From Saccharothrix algeriensis (GTDB lineage Bacteria > Actinomycetota > Actinomycetes > Mycobacteriales > Pseudonocardiaceae): 64,000 nt of DNA. Within the stretch, counting starts at the first letter, position 1, and the number at the start of each line of letters is the position of its first letter. The position numbers were made by a program, and so were the translations under genes. A model generated the notes under the pieces. That model worked only from the letters and a program-made list of their open reading frames with translations, did no database searches and had not been told where the DNA came from. Below are positions 54,035-64,000 of this stretch, piece by piece. The stretch spans positions 3,568,001 to 3,632,000 of the forward strand of contig NZ_JAFBCL010000001.1 in assembly GCF_016907655.1 (NCBI RefSeq). Direction: 5' to 3'.

Positions 54035-54811
54035 ATGGCCAAGCGCATCGACGTGAAGGACCTCAACCTGTACTACGGCAAGTTCCACGCCGTGGACGGG
54101 GTTTCGCTCGCCGTGCCGCCGAAGAACGTGACCGCGTTCATCGGCCCGTCGGGTTGCGGCAAGTCCACCGTGCTGCGGTCGCTGAACCGGATGCACGAGG
54201 TGGCGCCCGGCGCCCGCGTCGAGGGCAACGTGCTGCTGGACGGCGAGGACATCTACGCCTCCGCGGTCGACCCCGTGCAGGTGCGGCGGACCATCGGCAT
54301 GGTGTTCCAGCGCCCCAACCCGTTCCCCACGATGTCCATCCGCGACAACGTGGTGGCGGGCCTGAAGCTCGCGGGTGAGCGCAGCAAGAAGAAGCTCGAC
54401 GAGGTGGCCGAGCGGTCGCTGCGCGGGGCGAACCTGTGGAACGAGGTGAAGGACCGCCTCGACCGGCCCGGCGGCGGCCTGTCCGGTGGTCAGCAGCAGC
54501 GCCTGTGCATCGCGCGGGCCATCGCCGTGCAGCCCGACGTGCTGCTGATGGACGAGCCGTGCTCCGCGCTGGACCCGATCTCCACGCTGGCGATCGAGGA
54601 CCTGATCACGGAGTTGAAGAAGGAGTACACGATCGTCATCGTGACCCACAACATGCAGCAGGCGGCGCGGGTCAGCGACCAGACCGCGTTCTTCAACCTG
54701 CTCGGCGTGGGCCAGCCCGGTCGGCTGATCGAGGTGGACGACACGGAGAAGATCTTCTCCAACCCCAGCCAGAAGGCCACCGAGGACTACATCTCGGGTC
54801 GTTTCGGCTGA
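54035..54811 (+). CDS. pstB: Phosphate ABC transporter ATPase PstB
   Basis: A 258-residue ATPase. Walker A is [10 protein letters not shown], the Q-loop region [15 protein letters not shown], the signature [14 protein letters not shown], Walker [14 protein letters not shown] and the switch His in [13 protein letters not shown]. The C-terminus EDYISGRFG is standard for PstB. Its last 30 nt also exist as a decayed copy at 55688-55720, showing that the gene end was one boundary of a tandem duplication. Confidence 0.96.
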
Positions 54812-54827
54812 GTCGTTGCCGGTCTTG

Positions 54828-54861
54828 CAGGGGCCTTCCCGCCGTGGCGGGAAGGCCCCTG
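54828..54861. terminator. pstSCAB terminator (copy A)
   Basis: A 16-bp GC stem starting CAGGGGCCTTCCCGCC with a 2-nt loop, 17 nt after pstB. The same hairpin recurs at 55737-55770 as part of the duplicated segment. Confidence 0.88.
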
Positions 54862-54985
54862 TGTGTTGTGGTTCTGGTCACGTCATCACCCGGCCGGGTG
54901 TGCTGCCGCTACGTGTCGCGTGGCCGTCGAGGCACCGGTCTGATTCGGCGGCCGTCGTAGTCGAGACGGGTTCTGGGCTGCGCGG

Positions 54986-54991
54986 TACCGT
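54986..54991 (+). promoter_or_regulatory. Candidate -10 box, copy A of duplicated promoter
   Basis: TACCGT lies within GGTTCTGGGCTGCGCGGTAC, a stretch shared with copy B (55895-55900). Conservation of both copies suggests a working promoter for each lipoprotein unit. The -35 region differs between copies (CGAGAC against GGGACA). Confidence 0.5.
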
Positions 54992-54997
54992 TCTCGA

Positions 54998-55087
54998 CTT
55001 GCCGACGCGAGGGTCGCTCTCCAGAAAGCGATCGGGAACTATCGCGAAGTTGGCGACGCGGCCGCCGGCGGTCTGAAGCGTTACTGA
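54998..55087 (+). pseudogene. 3' remnant of a small ESX gene
   Basis: Ninety nucleotides encode the last 29 residues and stop of a copy of the small ESX protein at 55933. ALQKAIGNYREVGDAAAGG here aligns with ALRKAIENYREVDDAAASG there, in frame and at the same distance (1 nt) from the following lipoprotein start. The first 105 codons, start and ribosome site are deleted. The export motif is also lost, since Asp124 of the intact gene is Gly here. Confidence 0.82.
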
Positions 55088-55088
55088 G

Positions 55089-55658
55089 GTGGGGATGCAG
55101 TTGACCAGGGATTTAGCGACCCGTTCCATCCTGCTGATCCTGGTGGCAGGGTTGGTGCTGACGGGGTGCACGACGACGGATCCAGGCAACGCCACGGCGG
55201 GTCGTGACAGCACCTTTACGACGGAGACCTCGGAGGGGACCACCACCACGTCAGCGCCTGCGGGTGGAGGGGACGAGTTGGCCAAGTTCGACGCGTGCGC
55301 CGAGTTGAACGCCGTCGCGGGCCAGTTCGCGCTGTCTCGGATCGAGAAGGTCGGCGCCAAGGGGTGCCAGGCACGCTGGGGGCAGACGACGACCGCCGTC
55401 ACGATCGTCGCAGTCCCGGAGCTGCCCATCGGGGAGGCCACCGGCGGGCCCGACGCCCGGTACTCCGATGTCATGATCGGTGCGCGCAAGGCCAAGCGCG
55501 TCGAGGCCGGTCTCACCGACGTCTCGTGCCTGGTGGCGGTCGAGGTCACTGCCGAGTCCCGAGTCGACTTCTACGGTGCGGCCACCACGTCCGTCGACGA
55601 GTCCTGCGCTGCTGCGACCAAGCTCGCCGAAGCCGTCGAACCCAAGCTGCCGAAGTAG
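55089..55658 (+). CDS. DUF3558-family lipoprotein (duplicated copy A)
   Basis: A 189-residue lipoprotein with lipobox LVLTGCTTTDPGN and a Thr-rich tether, followed by FDACAELNAVAGQFALSRIE and the closing KLAEAVEPKLPK. It is a paralogue of the gene at 56339; signal peptide, tether composition and the last 12 residues are almost identical, while the centre has diverged. GTG at 55089 (ATG in the paralogue) follows the ESX remnant. With its ESX partner lost, its own expression must come from the duplicated promoter at 54986. The reading frame is intact, so the gene is probably functional. Confidence 0.82.
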   Translation: MGMQLTRDLATRSILLILVAGLVLTGCTTTDPGNATAGRDSTFTTETSEGTTTTSAPAGGGDELAKFDACAELNAVAGQFALSRIEKVGAKGCQARWGQTTTAVTIVAVPELPIGEATGGPDARYSDVMIGARKAKRVEAGLTDVSCLVAVEVTAESRVDFYGAATTSVDESCAAATKLAEAVEPKLPK

Positions 55659-55663
55659 GGCTG

Positions 55664-55720
55664 GAGCGGAATCTGAAGCAGGTGGTCGAGGGCTACGTCT
55701 CGGGTGGTCGTTCCGGCTGA
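55664..55720 (+). pseudogene. Fused remnants of a PPE-like gene and the pstB tail
   Basis: 55664-55696 matches 57119-57151 inside the intact PPE-like gene at 29 of 33 positions (encoding Leu-Glu-Gln-Val-Val-Glu-Asp-Tyr there). From 55688 onward the sequence instead matches the pstB 3' end, through its stop at 55720 and on into the terminator. The two matches meet at GAGGGCTAC, the counterpart of GAGGACTAC in both parents. This is the novel joint of a tandem duplication. Confidence 0.82.
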
Positions 55721-55736
55721 GTCGTTGCCGGTCTTG

Positions 55737-55770
55737 CAGGGGCCTTCCCGCCATGGTGGGAAGGCCCCTG
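55737..55770. terminator. Duplicated pstB-type terminator (copy B)
   Basis: The same hairpin as at 54828 (13-bp stem CAGGGGCCTTCCC) with a changed loop. It now separates the first lipoprotein gene from the second ESX unit. Confidence 0.85.
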
Positions 55771-55894
55771 TGTGTTGTGGTTCTGATCACGTCATCACCC
55801 GGTCAGGTGTGCTGCCGCTGCGTGGCACGTGGCCGTCGGGGAACCCGTCTGATTCGGTCGTCGTCATAGTTGGGACAGGTTCTGGGCTGCGCGG

Positions 55895-55900
55895 TACCGT
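55895..55900 (+). promoter_or_regulatory. Candidate -10 box, copy B of duplicated promoter
   Basis: TACCGT in the same context as copy A, 33 nt before the small ESX gene start. TTGGGACAG upstream is a possible -35 element. Confidence 0.5.
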
Positions 55901-55932
55901 GCTGGGCGGGAATCGCGTGATCGCGGGGGGTA

Positions 55933-56337
55933 GTGGTGTCGGCACAGGGAGCGTGGAGCGCGCAGTCCATGCAGGCGATGACGGCCGGCATGCAGGGGCT
56001 CAAGCAGGCGGCGGAGTCCGGCTCGTTCGCCATCAGCCAGGCCGGTGCCGAGGCTTACATCAAGGCCATCGAAGACGCCGAGGGTGAGATCAACAACCTG
56101 GACCTCAACCTCCTCGACCTCGCGCAGGAGACCAAGCTCGGCACCAGCCCTGATGCCCAGGCGATGAGTCGCTACAACATGGAGAACGTGCACGGCGGCG
56201 GGGGCACCACCGGCATCATGCCCGCGATCGACCAGCTGAAGGCCGCGCTGTCGGAGGCCAAGGCGGCGTTGCGAAAGGCGATCGAGAACTACCGCGAAGT
56301 CGACGACGCGGCGGCGAGCGGTCTCAAGAGCTACTGA
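55933..56337 (+). CDS. Small helical ESX-type secreted protein (module 2)
   Basis: A 134-residue helical-hairpin protein. The C-terminal ENYREVDDAAA provides Tyr120-x-x-x-Asp124, the YxxxD/E type VII export signal. A glycine turn (VHGGGGTTGIMP) joins two helical halves. The W-x-G turn is absent. GTG at 55933 or at 55936 could start it; GGGGGG lies just upstream. It is followed 1 nt later by the lipoprotein gene, so they are coupled. A truncated copy lies at 54998. Confidence 0.72.
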   Translation: MVSAQGAWSAQSMQAMTAGMQGLKQAAESGSFAISQAGAEAYIKAIEDAEGEINNLDLNLLDLAQETKLGTSPDAQAMSRYNMENVHGGGGTTGIMPAIDQLKAALSEAKAALRKAIENYREVDDAAASGLKSY

Positions 56338-56338
56338 G

Positions 56339-56917
56339 ATGGGGATGCAGTTGTCCAGGAAGCTGGCGGTCCGTTCGGTCCTGCCGATCGCAGTGGTCGG
56401 CCTGGTGCTGGCGGGGTGCACGACGAAGGACCCCGGGAACCCCACGTCGAGTGGTGACAGCACCACTACCGGCGCCACGACCGGGACGTCGGAGGAGTCG
56501 ACCACCACTTCGGCTCCTACCGGCGGTGGCGCGGACCTGGCGAAGTTCGATCCATGCGCGGAGATGAACGCCGTCGCGGGTCAGCTCTCGCTGACCGGCA
56601 TCGAGGAGGACGGCAAGCAGGCGTGCATGGCCAAGTGGGGCAACTCGACGACCAGGGTGCGTATCAGGGTGTACCCGGAGCTCGGCATCGCCGACGTGGT
56701 GGCGAAGCCTGACGCGCAGATCACCGAGACCACCATCGGTTCGCACAAAGCCAAGATTGCCAAAGCCGCGCTGAGCAAGACCGACTGCGATGTGTCCGTC
56801 GAGATCACCGCCAAGTCCAGGGTCGACTTCTTCGGCGCGGCCACCGCCTCCGCCGACGAGGCGTGCGACGCGGCCAAGGAGCTCGCCGAAGCCGTCGAAC
56901 CCAAGCTGCCGAAGTAG
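56339..56917 (+). CDS. DUF3558-family lipoprotein (copy B, module 2)
   Basis: A 192-residue lipoprotein. The lipobox is LVLAGCTTKDPGN, then a Ser/Thr-rich tether to about residue 60, and a domain with FDPCAEMNAVAGQLSLTGIE, QACMAKWGN and SKTDCDVSVEI. It is paralogous to the gene at 55089 and more distantly to that at 9600. ATG at 56339 follows the ESX gene by one nucleotide. The PPE-like gene starts 15 nt after its stop. Confidence 0.83.
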   Translation: MGMQLSRKLAVRSVLPIAVVGLVLAGCTTKDPGNPTSSGDSTTTGATTGTSEESTTTSAPTGGGADLAKFDPCAEMNAVAGQLSLTGIEEDGKQACMAKWGNSTTRVRIRVYPELGIADVVAKPDAQITETTIGSHKAKIAKAALSKTDCDVSVEITAKSRVDFFGAATASADEACDAAKELAEAVEPKLPK

Positions 56918-56932
56918 GACAGGAGCAGAGCC

Positions 56933-58480
56933 GTGGCACCGCCGGACCCGCAGAACCCCAACGCGACCAAGGTCGACTACGTCGGTCAGACCGAGGCGGA
57001 GCTGCGTGCCGAGTACGACCGGAAGGTCCAGGAGAACCCGGGCTTCGGCAACGTGGTTCCCAACTTCCTGGCCTACCTCGACTACAAGTCGGAGTCGGCG
57101 CGGCACCAGGCCCAGCAGGAGCGGCAGCTGGAGCAGGTGGTCGAGGACTACCGGCCGCCGATGTCGACGGCCGGGTCGTTCTACCTGGGCTACCCGCACG
57201 ACCAGCTCAAGTCCATGGTCACCGACAACATGGCGCCCAGCACGGCCGACGAGCAGGGCGAGGCGTGGACGAAGATCGGCAACACGCTGGTCGACCTGCA
57301 GGACAACCTGACCAAGGCGACCGAGGCCAGCAAGGGCGCGTGGCAGGGCGCCGCGGCGAGCGCCGCGCAGGGCTACTTCACCGACATGGCCGCCTGGTCG
57401 GGCAACGCCGCCCAGGGCGCGCAGCTGACCGGCAACAAGCTCTACGAGCAGAGCCAGGCCGCCGAGACGGCCAAGTCGGCGATGCCCGAGCCGGTGCAGT
57501 TCAGCACGGCCGACGCCTACAAGATGTTCTTCTCCGAGCCGAACCCGTTCAAGTGGGCGGAGACGATCGACAAGATCGAGCAGAAGTTCGAGGAGAAGCA
57601 GCAGGCGCACGAGCGGGCGGCCGAGGTCATGACGACCATGTCGACCTCGTTCCAGGAGACCGGTTCCACGATGCCCGCGTTCGCGCCGCCCCCCACCATG
57701 GAGGGCTCCGGCGGCACGGGTGACTCGACCAACCCGAACCAGACCGGTGTCGGCGGCCGACCGACGGTCCCGGACGCCCCCGGCGGCGGTACGGGGGTCA
57801 CCGGCATCCCCGGCCCCGGTGGTGGCGGCAAGGGCGGTGGCAACACCAACCAGTCCGGCTGGACCCCGGGCGGTGGTCCCGGTGGCGGGCCGGGCGGCAT
57901 CCCCGGTCCGGGTCCCGGTCCCGGTGGCGGCGGTTGGCAACCCGGCCCCGCACCCATCCCGGGACCCGTCCCGGGACCGGGTCCCGGCCCCAGGCCCGGT
58001 CCGGGCAACCGGCCGCCCACGGGCCCGCGCCCGCCCGGCGTGCCGATCGGCCGCCCGGGCCCCGGTGGCGGTCCGGGCGGACGGGGCCTGCCCGGTGGTG
58101 GCGGCCCCGGTGGTGGCTCCGGCGGCGGTCGCGGCGGGCTGGGCGGGGGCCCTGGTGGCCTCGGTGGTCTCGGTGGCCCGGGCGGGTCGGCGGCGGCCGG
58201 TCGCGGCGGCTTCGGGCCCGGCGGGTCCTCGGGGATGCTGGGCGAGGCCGGGCGGTCCGGCGCGGGCGGCTTCGGCCCGTCCGGCAGCGGCGGTCCCGGT
58301 GGCGCGGCGGCCGGCCGCGGTGGCGCCGCCGCCGGGATGGGCATGGGCGGCATGGGCGCCGGGGCCGGTCGGGGTCAGGGCGAGGAGGACAAGGAGCACA
58401 AGGCCGCCTCGTACCTGGTCGAGACCGAGGACGTCTTCGGCGACGGCACGATGGTCGCGCCCCCGGTCATCGGCGGGTGA
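56933..58480 (+). CDS. PPE-like protein with Gly/Pro-rich tail (module 2)
   Basis: A 515-residue protein. The helical N-terminal 250 residues carry the WXG-type turn ASKGAWQGAAASAAQGYF near residue 141. A glycine/proline low-complexity region covers about 265-480. The acidic C-terminal tail is EHKAASYLVETEDVFGDG, then VAPPVIGG, matching the module 1 protein almost residue for residue. It is predicted ESX cargo bound by the downstream EspG. GTG at 56933 has ACAGGAG upstream. The stop overlaps the EspG start by 4 nt. Confidence 0.77.
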   Translation: MAPPDPQNPNATKVDYVGQTEAELRAEYDRKVQENPGFGNVVPNFLAYLDYKSESARHQAQQERQLEQVVEDYRPPMSTAGSFYLGYPHDQLKSMVTDNMAPSTADEQGEAWTKIGNTLVDLQDNLTKATEASKGAWQGAAASAAQGYFTDMAAWSGNAAQGAQLTGNKLYEQSQAAETAKSAMPEPVQFSTADAYKMFFSEPNPFKWAETIDKIEQKFEEKQQAHERAAEVMTTMSTSFQETGSTMPAFAPPPTMEGSGGTGDSTNPNQTGVGGRPTVPDAPGGGTGVTGIPGPGGGGKGGGNTNQSGWTPGGGPGGGPGGIPGPGPGPGGGGWQPGPAPIPGPVPGPGPGPRPGPGNRPPTGPRPPGVPIGRPGPGGGPGGRGLPGGGGPGGGSGGGRGGLGGGPGGLGGLGGPGGSAAAGRGGFGPGGSSGMLGEAGRSGAGGFGPSGSGGPGGAAAGRGGAAAGMGMGGMGAGAGRGQGEEDKEHKAASYLVETEDVFGDGTMVAPPVIGG

Positions 58481-59271
58481 GCGTGTTCTCGTTCGCCCTG
58501 TCGCACGCGGCGGCCGACGTGCTCTGGGAGGACCTGGAGCTGGGCAGCAGGCCGTACCCGTTCGACTTCCCCTACCTGGGGCAGACCCTCGACGAGCGGC
58601 GCGGCATCCGCAACGCCGTCTACCAGGACCTGGAAGCCCGCGGCCTGGCCCACCGCGGGCGGGTCGCCGCGGAGGTCGAGGAGGCGCTGACCCTGCTGGT
58701 GCGCTTCGAGCACTCGTTCACCGCGATCGCCTCGCTGGACCCGAAGAACGTGGAGCGCCAGCTGCTGGTCCGCAGCGGCGCGCAGGGCGAGCTGGCGGCG
58801 GTGGCGGTGCTGGACGAGCGCCGGCTGAAGGTCGACACCGTGCGGTCGTCGGCACTGCTGCGCGCGGTGGTGGACCGGATCCCGCCGGAGCGTCCCGGTC
58901 CGGGGCAGTCGCTGACGGTGCCGGTGCCGTCGTCCGCCCCGCCACCGCCGCGCCGCGACGAGGACTTCGCCGACGCCGGCTTCACCCGGGCGATGACGCC
59001 CCGGTCGACGGCGGCCTCGCAGGTGCGCGCCCTGGAAGCGGTGTTCGAGCGGCCCCGGCTGCGCGCCGGTCAGTTCGGCGTCACGGTCCGCGGCCGGCAC
59101 GGCCGGGAGCAGCGCGCGCCCCAGGTCGCCTGGTTCGACAACGACCAGGGCCGCTACATGACGCAGACGCGGCAGGGGCAGGACGGCCGGAAGTGGCTGA
59201 CCCACGCCCCCGCCGACAACGCGCGCATCGCCGCGCAGCTCGCCCAGGAGCTGAACGGACTGCTCAACTAG
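58477..59271 (+). CDS. EspG-family ESX secretion chaperone (module 2)
   Basis: A 264-residue EspG-like protein. It starts VFSFALSHAAADVLWEDLEL, with YPFDFPYLGQTLDERRGIRN, and has a C-terminal VAWFDNDQGRYMTQTRQGQ then WLTHAPADNARIAAQLAQEL. Residues about 145-175 form a Pro/Arg-rich loop (SSAPPPPRRDEDF). GTG at 58477 overlaps the PPE-like stop (GTGA), tighter than in module 1 where 117 nt and a hairpin intervene. It ends convergently with phoU. Confidence 0.8.
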   Translation: MSVFSFALSHAAADVLWEDLELGSRPYPFDFPYLGQTLDERRGIRNAVYQDLEARGLAHRGRVAAEVEEALTLLVRFEHSFTAIASLDPKNVERQLLVRSGAQGELAAVAVLDERRLKVDTVRSSALLRAVVDRIPPERPGPGQSLTVPVPSSAPPPPRRDEDFADAGFTRAMTPRSTAASQVRALEAVFERPRLRAGQFGVTVRGRHGREQRAPQVAWFDNDQGRYMTQTRQGQDGRKWLTHAPADNARIAAQLAQELNGLLN

Positions 59272-60075: not shown

Positions 60076-63000
60076 CTAGCTGCACGGGTCGGCGCCCGCG
60101 TTCACATAGGACAGATCCTCCGGCGGCGCCGCCTTGCCCTGCTCGGGGGCGGCCCCCTCCCCCTTCGGGGCGACGACCTGCTCGTCCCAGCCGGGCCCGA
60201 TGAGCAGCGTCACCGCGCCGCCCTGGCTCGCGTCGACCTCGAGCACGGCGCCGGGAACGGCTTTCGCGAGCGTGAACGCGGCGTCCTCGCCGCCCGCGCC
60301 GTACCGGATGACGGTCTTCGCGGCGGGCGGCGCGGTGCCGCTGTTGACGACGACGAAACCCAGTTGCGACAAGGCGTTCTTGGCCCGCCCGGCCGCGCCG
60401 TCGTTGTCCGCGTCGCCGTTGAACACCTGGATCTTCAACCCCTTGGGGTCGACCACCTTGCCCTGCTTGGGTTCCGCGGCCTTGTCGGCGGTGGCGGGCG
60501 GCTGCGCCGCGTCCGCCTCCGGCGCCTCGCCCGGCAGCGGCGTGCCGTCGATGATCGCCTGGAACAGCGCCCGGGTCTCGTCGACCTTCAGCATCTCGAT
60601 GTTGTCGTCGTTGGACGTCGTGGGGCCCTCGTCCGTCGCGTGCGGCACGGTGACGAAGCTGACCCGGCCGGCCTCGATGCCCTGCAGCGACTGCGCCAGC
60701 GTCAGCATGTCCTTGACGCCGATGTTCTGGCCGACGGTGGACGCGGCGAACGCGTTGAGGAAGTTGTTGAGCTTGCCCGGGTTGAGCAGCATCTCGCTGG
60801 ACAGCGCCGTGCGCAGCAGGGAGGACATGAACTTCTGCTGCCGCGTGACCCGGTCGTAGTCGCCGAACTCCTCGGTCTTCACGTGCCGGGCCCGCACGTA
60901 GTCCAGCGCCTTCTGACCGTCCACGTCGTACCTGCCGGGCTTGTCGAAGATCATGCCCAGCTCGCCGTCGTCCATCACCTTCGGCACGCAGATGTTGATC
61001 TTGCCGATGGCGTCGACCATCCCCTTGAAACCGTTGAAGTCCACGGACACGAAGTGGTTGATGGTCAAGCCGGTCAGCTCGGTCATGAACGTGCTGACGC
61101 ACTTGGGCCCGCCGTCGGCGTAAGCCTGGTTGGCCTTCACGCCCTTGGCGGCCGGCAGGACCTCGCCGGTGTACTCCCCGGTCTCGGAGTCCCACTTCTC
61201 GCACTCGGGCCGGGTGATCTGCAGGTCGCGCGGCACCGACACCACTACGACCCGCTTCCGGTCGGCCGGGATGTGGGCCAGCATCAGCACGTCCGACCGC
61301 GCGCCCCGCTCCTTGGCGGCGTCGCCGACGCCGTCCTCGGGCTTCGCGCCCGCGCGGGTGTCCGACCCGACGATGAGGAAGTTCTCGTCGCCCAACTGCT
61401 TCTCGGCCTCGTGCACGGCCGCCGAGTTGGTGTTCAGCGCGTCGATCTCGGTGAACTTGCTGTCCACGTAGAGCATCGCGCCCCACCCGAGGCCGGTCGC
61501 GACGAACACGATGACGGCGGCGGTCAGCGACAGCGCCTTGACGGCGCGGACGACCTGGACGTGCTTGGGCGTGCGGACCCGCCGGCGCGGGGCCTCGGGG
61601 TCGTCCCCGTCCTCGACGGCCGGGGTGAACACGGTCGCCTCTTCGTCGTGCTCGACCTTCCACGGCATGAGCTTCTGCCGGCGCTCCTTGCGCTGGCGCT
61701 CCTGCTCGGCGAGTTCGTCGTGCACCGCGGAGAACCTGGCCAGCGTGTGGTCGACCTCGCGGCGCTTCTTGACGTCGTCGCTGATGGCCTCCATCTCCGT
61801 GGTGAGGCTCGCCGGGTCGACCTGGTCGCGCCTCTCGGGCGCCGGCGCGCCGAGCCGGCCGGCGATGCCGTCCCGGCCCGCGTCGCCCCCGGCTTCCGCT
61901 GGCCGCCGGTCGACCACGGGCCGCGGTCCGCTGCCGTCGGGGCCGCCGGCCGGTCGGCGCGGCCCGTCGGGCGCGCCCTCAACCGGTCGGCGCGGGCCGT
62001 CGGGCGCCCCCTCGACCGGCCGGCGCGGCCCGTCCGGCGCGCCTTCGACCGGTCGGCGCGGGCCGTCCGGCGCGCCTTCCGCGCCGCGTCGTGGTCCGTC
62101 GGCCGGTCCGTCGGCCGGTCGCCGCGGCCCGTCCGGCGCGCCTTCGGGGTGCCGGCGCGGGCCGTCCGGTCCGCTGTCGGCCAACCGGCGCGGCCCGGAG
62201 CCGTCCGGTCCGCCTTCCGCGAGCCGGCGCGGTCCGTCCGGCGCGCCCTCGGCGAGGCGTCGTGGTCCGTCGGCCGGCCCGTCGGCGAGCCTGCGCGGTC
62301 CGCTGCCGTCCGGTCCGCCCGGCGCGAGCCTGCGCGGTCCGCCGTCGGGACCGCCGTCACCGGGGCGCCGCGCGCCGGGTCCGCCCTCGACGGGGCGCCG
62401 CGGCCCACCGGCGTTCGGCGCGCCCTCGGCGAGCCGGCGCGGCCCGGAGCCGTCCGGTCCGCCCGCGAGCCGGCGAGGTCCACCGCCGTCCACGGGACCG
62501 CGTGGTCCGCCGGGCTCCGCCGGTCCGTCCGGTGCGAGCCTGCGCGGTCCGCCGTCGGGCTCGCCGGCGAGCCGTCGGGGGCCGCTGCCGTCCGGGCCGC
62601 CCGCGGGCCGCTGCGGGCCGTCCACGTCGGGCCGGGGCCGCCGGCCGGTGGCGTCGGGCCGGCGCGGGTCGTCGGGGGCGAACCGCTGGCCGGGTGCGCC
62701 GTTCGCGGGGGGCCGGCGCCTGTCCTCGGGGGGCGCGGCCGGGTGCGGCCGTCGTCCGGTCGCGTCCGGGCCGCCCAGGCGCTGGGCGACGTCGTCGGCC
62801 GGGGGCGGGAGGGCCCGCCGACCGGTCTCCGCGGGCGGGCGGGACCTGCGACCGGCGCCCTCCGACGGCGGCCCGAACGCGTCGGCCGGCCGTGCGCGCC
62901 GACCGGCGTCCTCGGGCGGCGTCGCGCCGTTGGCGGGGTGCGGCCGTCGGCCGGTGTCCTCCGGCGCAGGCGGTCGTGCGCGGCGGCCGGTGTCCTCGTG

Positions 63001-63747
63001 GGAGGGAGCGCCGTCGGGTCGTGCGCGCCGACCGGCGTCCTCAGGGGCGAACGTCTCGGTCGGCACGGCCGCGGCGGCGCGTGCGCGTCGGCCGGCGTCC
63101 TCGGCGGGGGGGCGTGCGCGGCGGCCGGTGTCCTCAGGGGCGGAGTGTCCTGGGGAGCGGCCGAGGTCTTCGGGTGCGGAGGGTCGTGCGCGGCGGCCGG
63201 TCCCGTCAGGGGCGGAGTGCCCCGGGAGGCCGCCGGGGTCTTCGGGGGCGGGCGGTCGCGCTCGCCGGCCGGCGTCCTCGGGCGCGTGCGGACGCGCTCG
63301 TCGGCCGGTGTCCTCGGCGGGCGGGGCCGAGCCGTTCGGCGGGGGCGGGGCGGGGCGCGCCCGGCGGCCGGTCTCCTCGGGGGCCGGGCGCCCCGCGGAC
63401 GGCGTGAAGTGGTCGGGCGGCGCGCCGTTCGGCCGGCGGACGCCCTCGGGAGGCGGCAGGCCCGGGCCGCGGTCGGCCCGGGGCTGCCGGGCGTCACCGG
63501 GTTCCGGGGCCGCGCGCCGCCCGGTCGGCTGCGGCGCGCCGGCCGGCGGACCCGACGGCTCGGGTCTGCGCTCGTCCGGCGGCACGGGCCGCGGGATGTT
63601 CGACCGGCTGTGCTGCTCCAGCAACTCGGAGACGCTCAGACCGCCGCCGCCCTCCAGCGAGCGGCGTCGGCGGCCGGTCGGCTGGTCGTCCTGCGGGGCC
63701 TGGTCACCTCGGGGTCCGGGGCCGCCACGGCGGGGCTCGTCGGGCAC
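60076..63747 (-). CDS. LytR-CpsA-Psr protein with very long repetitive cytoplasmic arm
   Basis: A 1,223-residue LCP protein (Rv0822c position). LCP enzymes transfer glycopolymers such as arabinogalactan or teichoic acid onto peptidoglycan. Residues about 1-620 are Arg/Pro/Gly-rich repeats; a charged coil lies at about 640-700 and one membrane helix at about 735-760 (AVIVFVATGLGWGAMLYV). The LCP domain is at about 787-985 (NFLIVGSDTRAG, VVVVSVPRDLQI, GKINICVP, ALDYVRARHV, YDRVTRQQKFM). A LytR_C domain lies at about 1100-1190 (LKIQVFNGDADNDGAAG). GTG at 63747 is preferred over TTG at 63762 because AAGGGAG lies 7 nt before it. The arm is far longer than in usual LCP proteins. Confidence 0.88.
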   Translation of the reverse strand: MPDEPRRGGPGPRGDQAPQDDQPTGRRRRSLEGGGGLSVSELLEQHSRSNIPRPVPPDERRPEPSGPPAGAPQPTGRRAAPEPGDARQPRADRGPGLPPPEGVRRPNGAPPDHFTPSAGRPAPEETGRRARPAPPPPNGSAPPAEDTGRRARPHAPEDAGRRARPPAPEDPGGLPGHSAPDGTGRRARPSAPEDLGRSPGHSAPEDTGRRARPPAEDAGRRARAAAAVPTETFAPEDAGRRARPDGAPSHEDTGRRARPPAPEDTGRRPHPANGATPPEDAGRRARPADAFGPPSEGAGRRSRPPAETGRRALPPPADDVAQRLGGPDATGRRPHPAAPPEDRRRPPANGAPGQRFAPDDPRRPDATGRRPRPDVDGPQRPAGGPDGSGPRRLAGEPDGGPRRLAPDGPAEPGGPRGPVDGGGPRRLAGGPDGSGPRRLAEGAPNAGGPRRPVEGGPGARRPGDGGPDGGPRRLAPGGPDGSGPRRLADGPADGPRRLAEGAPDGPRRLAEGGPDGSGPRRLADSGPDGPRRHPEGAPDGPRRPADGPADGPRRGAEGAPDGPRRPVEGAPDGPRRPVEGAPDGPRRPVEGAPDGPRRPAGGPDGSGPRPVVDRRPAEAGGDAGRDGIAGRLGAPAPERRDQVDPASLTTEMEAISDDVKKRREVDHTLARFSAVHDELAEQERQRKERRQKLMPWKVEHDEEATVFTPAVEDGDDPEAPRRRVRTPKHVQVVRAVKALSLTAAVIVFVATGLGWGAMLYVDSKFTEIDALNTNSAAVHEAEKQLGDENFLIVGSDTRAGAKPEDGVGDAAKERGARSDVLMLAHIPADRKRVVVVSVPRDLQITRPECEKWDSETGEYTGEVLPAAKGVKANQAYADGGPKCVSTFMTELTGLTINHFVSVDFNGFKGMVDAIGKINICVPKVMDDGELGMIFDKPGRYDVDGQKALDYVRARHVKTEEFGDYDRVTRQQKFMSSLLRTALSSEMLLNPGKLNNFLNAFAASTVGQNIGVKDMLTLAQSLQGIEAGRVSFVTVPHATDEGPTTSNDDNIEMLKVDETRALFQAIIDGTPLPGEAPEADAAQPPATADKAAEPKQGKVVDPKGLKIQVFNGDADNDGAAGRAKNALSQLGFVVVNSGTAPPAAKTVIRYGAGGEDAAFTLAKAVPGAVLEVDASQGGAVTLLIGPGWDEQVVAPKGEGAAPEQGKAAPPEDLSYVNAGADPCS
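61905..62640 (-). repeat. Coding repeats: Asp-Gly-Pro-Arg-Arg units
   Basis: The LCP gene encodes about 25 copies of (D)GPRR separated by short EGAP, AGGP or ADGP spacers (for example PVEGAPDGPRR). Four near-exact 33-bp DNA repeats lie at about 61975-62090. The strongly repeated DNA suggests recent slippage expansion. Confidence 0.85.
62890..63390 (-). repeat. Coding repeats: (D/A)GRRARP-APED units
   Basis: A second repeat class in the same protein, about twelve copies of ED(T/A)GRRARP with APED linkers, irregularly spaced by 12-25 residues. It lies N-terminal to the GPRR class, so the arm was built from two separate expansions. Confidence 0.82.
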
Positions 63748-64000
63748 CCGGTCTCCCTTCAACCTTCGGTCAGTAGCGGGTCGTCATCACGAGTTGACGA
63801 CATCAAGGACACATTGGTTGCACCAACGGCGTGTCACTTGCCTTGGCGATACTACGGATGACCGCCAGTCCTGACGACCACTCCCGGTGATACAGGGGTG
63901 GTGGGTACTCGATTGCGCGCAGCATGGTACGCCCGAGCGGGTGATCTACCTAGCAAATCAGTAACCAGCTACCCGCGATTCGGCTATCCCGCGCCGCCCC
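63748..64000. other. Upstream region of the LCP gene, no gene seen
   Basis: 253 nt of lower GC. A short inverted repeat TTGGTTGCACCAA lies at about 63812-63824. TTGACGACAT at about 63793 and TATCAC-type sequences on the minus strand may belong to the LCP promoter. No open frame with a start signal is seen before the window edge. Confidence 0.45.

Follow-up and report, generated by a model that had tools for sequence, protein, structure and literature searches.

Two DUF3558 lipoprotein alleles, probably stacked by recombination, between pstB and a PPE/EspG pair in Saccharothrix algeriensis

The window analysed here is a stretch of 64,000 nt from the soil bacterium Saccharothrix algeriensis, in which pstB is followed by a module of ESX, lipoprotein (LP), PPE and EspG genes. 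Our results suggest, with a probability of roughly 0.7, that the region is a stack of two LP alleles in a recombination-prone slot between pstB and the PPE/EspG pair. Judged by sequence comparison, it appears to exemplify a process in which ESX-linked LP alleles are repeatedly swapped and stacked.

Results

The features of the locus, all on the + strand, are the following:
54035..54811, +, pstB, phosphate ABC transporter ATPase (ORF; ABC_tran 111 bits); its 3' end is one parent of the joint (10-nt homology)
54826..54863, +, terminator-like hairpin, copy A (MFE −36.8 kcal/mol, z −6.6; T-poor tail)
54941..54997, +, putative promoter region, copy A, recognised because congeners conserve it upstream of ESX (conserved alignment block; copy B identical at 46/54 positions)
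54998..55087, +, ESX remnant, last 29 codons and stop, lacking a start codon (tblastn match 54983-55084)
55089..55658, +, lipoprotein A, DUF3558-like, 189 aa from GTG (ORF; 28.4 bits, under the 34.1 cut-off)
55660..55696, +, PPE-gene fragment, parent 57115-57151 (32/37 identical)
55688..55720, +, pstB-tail fragment joined to the PPE fragment, forming the novel joint (27/30 identical to 54782-54811, plus a 3-nt insertion)
55735..55772, +, terminator-like hairpin, copy B (MFE −34.9 kcal/mol, z −5.8)
55933..56337, +, small ESX-like protein, 134 aa, intact (ORF; weak EspC and WXG100 matches under cut-offs)
56339..56917, +, lipoprotein B, DUF3558, 192 aa (39.6 bits, cut-off 34.1; AF2 model)
56933..58480, +, PPE-like protein, 515 aa (PPE 22.6 bits, cut-off 26); the first ~219 nt form the joint's second parent
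58483..59271, +, EspG-family chaperone (221.8 bits)

The tandem duplication with a readable novel joint that the initial annotation had proposed was recovered by a mechanical repeat search, almost exactly where it had been placed. The repeat pairs are 54797-54994 with 55706-55903 (90% over 198 nt), 55004-55219 with 56254-56469 (77%), 55218-55394 with 56477-56653 (73%) and 55448-55670 with 56707-56929 (74%). The diagonal between the copies is unbroken except for two gaps, both in copy A: one comprises the end of the intergenic region and roughly the first 105 ESX codons, the other the PPE start. The ESX gene of copy A is indeed cut to its last 29 codons, in which in-frame ATG, GTG and TTG were looked for and none was found. 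The PPE fragment is real, its length being 37 nt and not about 33; it is 86% identical to its parent, and its 32 matches compare with a maximum of 23 in 300 first-order Markov resamples of the target. At the joint this fragment is fused to the pstB tail across 10 identical nt, CGAGGACTAC, so that the short homology stands and is one nucleotide longer than had been stated. The PPE deletion of copy A ends at a 7-nt direct repeat, CAGGAGC (56920 and 57116). The joint, the two gaps and this repeat bear out the proposed short-homology duplication followed by two internal deletions.

Some details of copy A have to be read with care. The two terminator-like sites compare with a mean of 1.2 in shuffles, so their count alone is not significant, and a sigma-70 consensus scan of the promoter region of copy A returned no promoter-like site. 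By eye, the TTG at 55101, which is conserved in congeners, seems a likelier start of LP A than the GTG. Both LP frames are intact, as had been claimed, and within this genome LP A and LP B are close only to each other (60% identity, the next of 7 matches being 26%).

Divergence between the copies is uneven. Identity is 27/30 in the pstB tail, 118/129 in the terminator and intergenic part (about 90% for the intergenic copies) and 46/54 in the promoter region; it is 75/90 in the ESX tail, 62/81 in the LP signal, 82/110 in the LP linker and 116/168 and 155/202 in the mature LP. Synonymous differences in the mature LP amount to 53/125 sites (pS 0.42) as compared to 19/183 intergenic differences (Fisher p 1e-10), and 42% is about the synonymous divergence between lipoproteins of different species. 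Intergenic identity is 0.88 between A and B and 0.71-0.73 to the sister species (G015). Ks of the LPs is 0.58 for A-B, 0.57 for A-G015 and 0.45 for B-G015, while flank genes of the two species differ with Ks 0.14-0.29. That LP A is a simple duplicate of LP B, as the initial annotation had taken it to be, is thus not supported: one duplication, two deletions and LP retention explain the flanks and not the lipoproteins, and that account is only partly supported.

If the duplication were nevertheless plain and recent, the LPs would have diverged unusually fast under positive selection. This is very unlikely. The joint and flanks fit, and Ka between A and B is high (0.29); synonymous sites, however, have diverged as between species against 10% in intergenic DNA, which would need a local mutation rate about 4 times higher inside the LP. 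Omega is 0.51 for A-B and stays below 1 in 55/55 LP pairs (maximum 0.74). Since no pair exceeds 1, positive selection on the LPs is not demonstrated, and its simple form was rejected.

LP A is instead a mosaic, sharing sites with the G015 allele in its core and with LP B at its 3' end (permutation p 0.009). Altogether 7 of 8 triplet tests gave p < 0.01, the exception being B against A and G015 (p 0.63); a core-versus-ends table for the third LP of another congener, G016, gave p 0.19. In the LP protein tree A groups with G015 at a support of only 91/57, and A and B as sisters are not rejected (p 0.36). A sister relationship of LP A with the G015 lipoprotein is favoured by these sequences, not proven.

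Extra LP copies or remnants occur at 5 of 22 Saccharothrix pst-linked loci. The single-copy arrangement expected in relatives was found in 17 of 20 congener loci; among the features looked for, unrelated intact genes took the place of copy A at no locus of this set. The window has 2 LP copies, G016 has 4 and S. coeruleofusca 5. All 4 are intact in G016, as are 4 of 5 in S. coeruleofusca; extra LPs are decayed in G023 and probably in G021. Selection for a second lipoprotein, as suggested earlier, is therefore plausible and does not hold generally. In G016, mature domains about 70% identical lie within pseudogene flanks that are 94-98% identical. Units 2 and 3 share 161/165 in a PPE fragment, 151/160 in a PstC fragment, 57/60 in the ESX tail and 83/84 in the LP signal, as compared to 135/190 and 133/191 in the mature LP; pseudogene differences are 13/325 and LP synonymous differences 55/123 (p 6e-24). 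Joints are PPE-pstB in the window, PPE-PstC-ESX tail in G016, and an LP end near an ESX tail in S. coeruleofusca. Because the joints differ, separate array-forming events are likelier than one ancestral duplication common to all arrays, which we set aside on this comparison.

These arrays also bear on the assembly. The genome is scored 90% complete despite being one contig, which might raise the suspicion of an artefact; the two copies differ throughout, however, and comparable arrays stand in the independently assembled G016 and S. coeruleofusca, so that an artefact is hardly conceivable.

Single-copy loci are swapped as well. G006 and G024, two genomes that are nearly identical otherwise, diverge in a stretch of about 1.2 kb that begins in mid ESX, takes in the LP and ends within PPE. 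Outside this island their identity is 0.93-1.00 (mostly 0.97-1.00); inside, it falls to 0.59-0.77 for the LP and to 0.63-0.82 over most of ESX. In all 10 species pairs tried, pS is higher in the mature LP than in pstB, EspG and phoU, and the LP tree rejects all 5 tested flank-tree groups (p 0.011 to 6e-6). The LPs of G017 and G005 are sisters, and G006 and G024 share 97-99% identity at two other DUF3558 loci; the conflict with flank genes is thus not universal. It is important to note that the swapping analysis covers Saccharothrix, where genomes carry 8-21 DUF3558 lipoprotein genes; other genera entered the homologue searches only. Given the extra LPs, the array contrast in G016 and the island between G006 and G024, the window is not a one-off.

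An older duplication with concerted evolution has to be weighed against the stacking of swapped alleles. A and B would have split before or near the split from G015, with gene conversion later evening out the terminator-promoter part alone. Conversion is feasible between direct repeats 909 bp apart, Ks between LP A and LP B is equal to that between species, and the tree leaves A and B free to be sisters. Yet the PPE fragment at the joint lacks a tandem partner and has still diverged from its parent at only 5/37 positions, which suggests a young joint, with the caveat that the parent is under coding constraint. Moreover, the same contrast of flanks and LP recurs in the G016 pseudogene flanks, and the single-copy island is left unexplained. 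We regard this history as unlikely, while taking it seriously.

Discussion

Our reading as a stack of swapped alleles can be put as a sequence of events. A short-homology event placed a second unit of pstB end, terminator, promoter, ESX, LP and PPE start beside the first, as the joint shows. Deletions then removed the ESX head and the PPE start of the upstream unit, in the second case across the 7-nt repeat; what remained was an LP with an upstream region of its own, flanked by two hairpins. The mature LP domains have diverged much further than the flanks of the repeat, so that homologous recombination has either imported an LP allele from a divergent source or prevented the flanks from drifting apart; the mosaic is observed, its direction we infer. 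In Saccharothrix, the ESX-LP pair is exchanged between lineages while pstB, EspG and phoU stay in place, and extra LPs build up, interspersed with ESX and PPE remnants.

DUF3558 (PF12079) denotes exported lipoproteins with a lipobox cysteine. LP B passes the Pfam gathering score and LP A stays under it; the putative lipobox cysteine, C27, is invariant in 18/18 aligned LPs. The AF2 model of LP B is of high confidence between about residues 71 and 190 (means over ten residues at least 92), with 7 strands and a C-terminal helix. A PDB sequence search gave nothing below E 0.28, and none of 1209 Foldseek matches reached E ≤ 1e-3; the best 50 of these include Tsi3 (3wa5_B) at E 0.26, with PsbP-like folds ranking higher. 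Weak matches to the subtilisin inhibitor SSI (LP A 22.7 bits, cut-off 23.9; LP B 15.0) and to NF009716 (18.9 of 197) look like signal and linker similarity. The label ESX rests on size, gene context and profile matches under cut-offs (EspC 14.9 against 23.5, WXG100 13.3 against 27.3, TIGR03930 14.7 against 44.85). The PPE-like protein is likewise under the PF00823 cut-off, and EspG comes next. Actinobacterial modules such as those of mycobacteria have a PPE-like protein followed by the EspG chaperone, and the window shares this order; it differs in adjoining pst genes, away from the single EccD gene of the genome, and in having a DUF3558 LP between ESX and PPE. In the literature collection searched, no paper related to DUF3558 or PF12079 was found.

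What do these lipoproteins do? Across 17 genomes, mature LP distance has a partial rho of 0.56 with the ESX mid segment, 0.53 with the ESX C segment and 0.38 with the LP's own signal and linker. This correlation may be due to linkage alone. We infer that the DUF3558 LP could be a membrane-anchored partner of a co-inherited ESX-family type VII substrate, with the swapped domain as its specificity part. By a different account, escape from phages or other predators would have driven the diversification of a surface LP, and ESX would have hitch-hiked through linkage. Swapping is confined to the exported, membrane-anchored protein and its close neighbours, as this would require; however, the mature LP covaries more closely with the variable ESX segments than with its own signal and linker, and PADLOC gave no defence match. 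We find predator escape improbable.

As described in PMC9484751, esaG of S. aureus and tipC of streptococci form strings of non-identical type VII immunity paralogues in Firmicutes, whose copy number changes by recombination between paralogues; tipC has conserved blocks at the gene ends and a variable centre, and the related tsaI cluster contains fragments of the partner gene tspA. The loci of the window, G016 and S. coeruleofusca resemble these arrays in their tandem non-identical paralogues beside type VII genes, in recombination between LP paralogues (mosaic tests, segment contrasts), in the conserved ends and variable centre seen in G016, and in partner-gene fragments inside the array. Saccharothrix differs in belonging to another phylum, in having DUF3558 and not EsaG or TipC, in lacking a recognised toxin gene, and in that single-copy loci are also swapped between species. 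PMC10730906 describes the S. aureus immunity lipoprotein TilA and the DUF576 tandem lipoproteins, with a lipase toxin as substrate. Membrane lipoproteins in variable tandem clusters beside genes for a type VII substrate and small helical partners are common to both, whereas ESX and PPE of the window show no enzyme domain. The Pfam matches of the window proteins include no DUF576, and an NCBIfam search for known enzyme functions gave matches below cut-offs.

By analogy, each DUF3558 LP might neutralise the polymorphic ESX/PPE product, itself secreted, that matches it, and orphans might give protection from neighbours; LPs retained without their ESX would resemble orphan-immunity stacking. Tandem non-identical LPs, the G016 pattern of a variable mature part flanked by better conserved ends, partner-gene fragments inside arrays, ESX-LP co-inheritance and the parallels in the two papers speak for such an immunity array. 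Against it, no known immunity fold matched at E < 1e-3, and no toxin domain was found in ESX, PPE or EspG by Pfam and NCBIfam. For the latter reason we have not filed the locus as a type VII immunity array, which seems possible and on balance unlikely. It is rather doubtful, too, that the ESX-linked DUF3558 LPs of Saccharothrix supply the membrane side of a type VII recognition system that is polymorphic and specific for each pair, an actinobacterial counterpart of the Firmicute orphan-immunity arrays; ESX mid and mature LP would then travel as allele pairs, with superseded LPs kept as a record of alleles still to be tolerated.

A swapped ESX-LP allele pair, with superseded LPs left standing, would offer a direct handle on what DUF3558 LPs recognise. 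ESX-LP alleles appear exchangeable between close species and hence testable. The finding would extend recombination-driven type VII repertoires, described only for Firmicutes in PMC9484751 and PMC10730906, to actinobacteria.

Results

The tandem repeat that had been claimed between pstB and the ESX module is present in the window by repeat and alignment comparison. The decayed upstream copy A opens with a pstB tail, followed by a hairpin, the ESX promoter region and the final 29 codons of ESX; next come an entire lipoprotein gene, 37 nt of the PPE gene and a pstB-tail fragment, in which copy B starts. The proposed short-homology joint is borne out by 10 identical bases found in both parents, and a 7-nt repeat lies at the end of the PPE deletion in copy A. 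No third close copy was found in the organism's own genome, a single contig of 6,878,582 bases. At 6.88 Mb this one-contig genome is 90% complete by score, its congeners being 7.4–10.9 Mb; it may be reduced or carry sequencing errors. The two DUF3558-type lipoprotein (LP) genes of the repeat are:

55089..55658 (+), LP A, in the decayed upstream copy
56339..56917 (+), LP B, in the downstream copy

In a profile search LP B scores above the DUF3558 cut-off and LP A below it. TTG codons occur at homologous places (55101 and 56351), and TTG is present in the LP starts viewed by eye across the genus. The purine-rich stretch 5' of these codons overlaps the ESX stop codon, which suggests that they may be the true LP start and that translation is coupled to that of ESX. 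The predicted LP model is confident at about residue 71 to 190 and has seven strands and a C-terminal helix. Its PDB fold matches are weak, BT_1490 being the best (E 2e-3), followed by PsbP-like folds. TipC, for which seven strands and terminal helices are described (PMC9484751), resembles the model in strand count only and is absent among the best 50 fold matches listed. Elsewhere in the window, a large ORF (60076-63762, minus strand) has a long near-repeat stretch (GPRRL/DGPRR-type) before its C-terminal part, which may vary in length between strains.

The order pstB, ESX, DUF3558 LP, PPE, EspG and convergent phoU is found in 20 congener stretches from a genus sample of 25 genomes, with a single ESX-LP pair in 17 of them. 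The other four genomes apparently lack the pst-linked arrangement: in G004, G011 and G013 the 12 stretches examined hold ESX-LP pairs without a close pstB, and a search with the window LPs gave no LP match in G018. One record, S. coeruleofusca, was added from a further collection of 13 loci, most of which probably overlap the genus sample. Among the 22 pst-linked loci compared, additional LPs or remnants occur in five (the window itself, G016, S. coeruleofusca, G023 and G021, the last a weak match of 33.9 bits); older remnants could have been missed, since only the window LPs served as queries. The four LPs of G016 are all intact; the DNA separating them holds ESX tails, fragments of PstC and PPE starts interrupted by early stop codons:

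L047:7245-9480, G016 array, PstC-gene fragments in three places between PPE starts and ESX tails (E 5e-6, 0.024 and 1e-6)

As the PstC gene is located farther upstream in this operon, the array joints have repeatedly taken up pst DNA. The S. coeruleofusca array opens with an ESX-LP pair that has decayed, continues with three LPs whose ESX is partial or decayed, and ends in an intact pair. Joints in both arrays are unlike that of the window. A different contig of S. coeruleofusca carries a further ESX-LP pair (L078:7001-7967), with an upstream region resembling that of the pst-linked pair by eye and no pstB or PPE match within the surrounding stretch. Tandem DUF3558 copies are not confined to the pst locus, as close-set genes also occur away from it (G016:C1:3962101-3964411, G013:C3:437228-439847 and G018:C1:7308254-7309435). 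The window's own genome has a single EccD gene (G000:C1:3869812-3871158) versus 12 DUF3558 matches, and one secretion machine may serve many satellite modules.

Copies A and B differ at 19 of 183 intergenic positions versus about 53 of 125 synonymous sites of the mature LP (Fisher p 1e-10). Intergenic identity is 0.88 between A and B, and 0.71 and 0.73 to the sister species G015. LP Ks is 0.58 for A–B, 0.57 for A–G015 and 0.45 for B–G015, and flank-gene Ks against G015 is 0.14–0.29. Since LP and ESX Ks are high throughout between species, codon-usage constraint in the flank genes may explain part of the between-species contrast; the within-genome contrast is independent of it. Units 2 and 3 of G016 show 94–99% identity across the PPE fragment, PstC fragment, ESX tail and signal sequence, past which it falls sharply to 70–73%. 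The contrast is softer for units 1 and 4 (intergenic 137/147, signal 77/84, mature 134/190 and 151/188). Synonymous differences between units 2 and 3 number 1/24 in the signal and 55/123 in the mature part. By these comparisons the flanks are younger than the lipoproteins. The contrast in the window is compatible both with import of a divergent LP and with homogenisation of the flanks.

LP A is itself a mosaic, sharing 59 sites with G015 and 28 with B in the core, and 14 with B and 6 with G015 at the 3' end (permutation p 0.009 for the switch). Across eight triplets seven gave p <0.01 and the remaining one 0.63. In a protein tree of 30 LPs, LP A and G015 group weakly (91/57) and A and B as sisters are not rejected (p 0.36), so the window case stands on divergence contrasts and the mosaic rather than on the tree. 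At single-copy loci all five flank-tree groupings tested on LPs (flank support 92/91 to 100/100) were rejected (p 0.011, 7e-6, 0.0012, 0.0011 and 6e-6); they were picked after viewing the first LP tree, a choice against which the test itself cautions. The LPs of G017 and G005 are sisters, agreeing with the flank tree.

The closely related pair G006 and G024 is 0.93–1.00 identical over about 9 kb (mostly 0.97–1.00), 0.82 falling to 0.59 from mid ESX through LP, and 0.83–0.93 at the PPE start. Their pS is 0.02–0.03 in pstB, EspG and phoU, 0.35 in ESX and 0.43 in mature LP. In all 10 species pairs compared, pS is higher in mature LP than in pstB, EspG and phoU; in one of them (G022/G014) the PPE value matches that of LP. 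Four more of the DUF3558 loci, of which G006 has eight by PF12079, were compared in this pair as a control. Two are 97 and 99% identical, while in two others (L094-L097, small-ORF/DUF3558/PPE-like) identity falls across the LP and the small gene next to it, most flanks being 0.95–1.00 and one flank of the second unaligned. Swapping is therefore neither specific to the pst locus nor universal. By eye (n=5), the swapped loci have the LP between a small ORF and PPE, and the conserved ones (L090, L092) are ordered differently.

Discussion

Recombination at the LP slot is well supported. The initial annotation proposed a single duplication; the scar of that event is real and was read correctly, and the wider loci add recurrent exchange at the same slot. 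In 17 single-copy genomes, mature LP distance, given flank distance, shows partial correlations of 0.56 with mid ESX, 0.53 with ESX C, 0.39 with ESX N, 0.38 with LP signal plus linker, 0.32 with PPE 76-256 and 0.25 (p 0.07) with PPE 1-75. Mid ESX lies farther on the DNA from mature LP than the signal does, yet tracks it better, which hints that the two are paired. Linkage, or saturation in the linker, are alternative sources of this correlation.

The function of the ESX-linked lipoprotein is inferred, and the closest working analogy comes from the type VII systems of Firmicutes, whose immunity repertoires recombine. No toxin was found at the Saccharothrix slot, and for this reason the slot is not assigned to type VII immunity arrays. 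On the wider evidence the window is one example of a slot that exchanges ESX-LP alleles and accumulates lipoproteins as the accompanying ESX and PPE genes decay.
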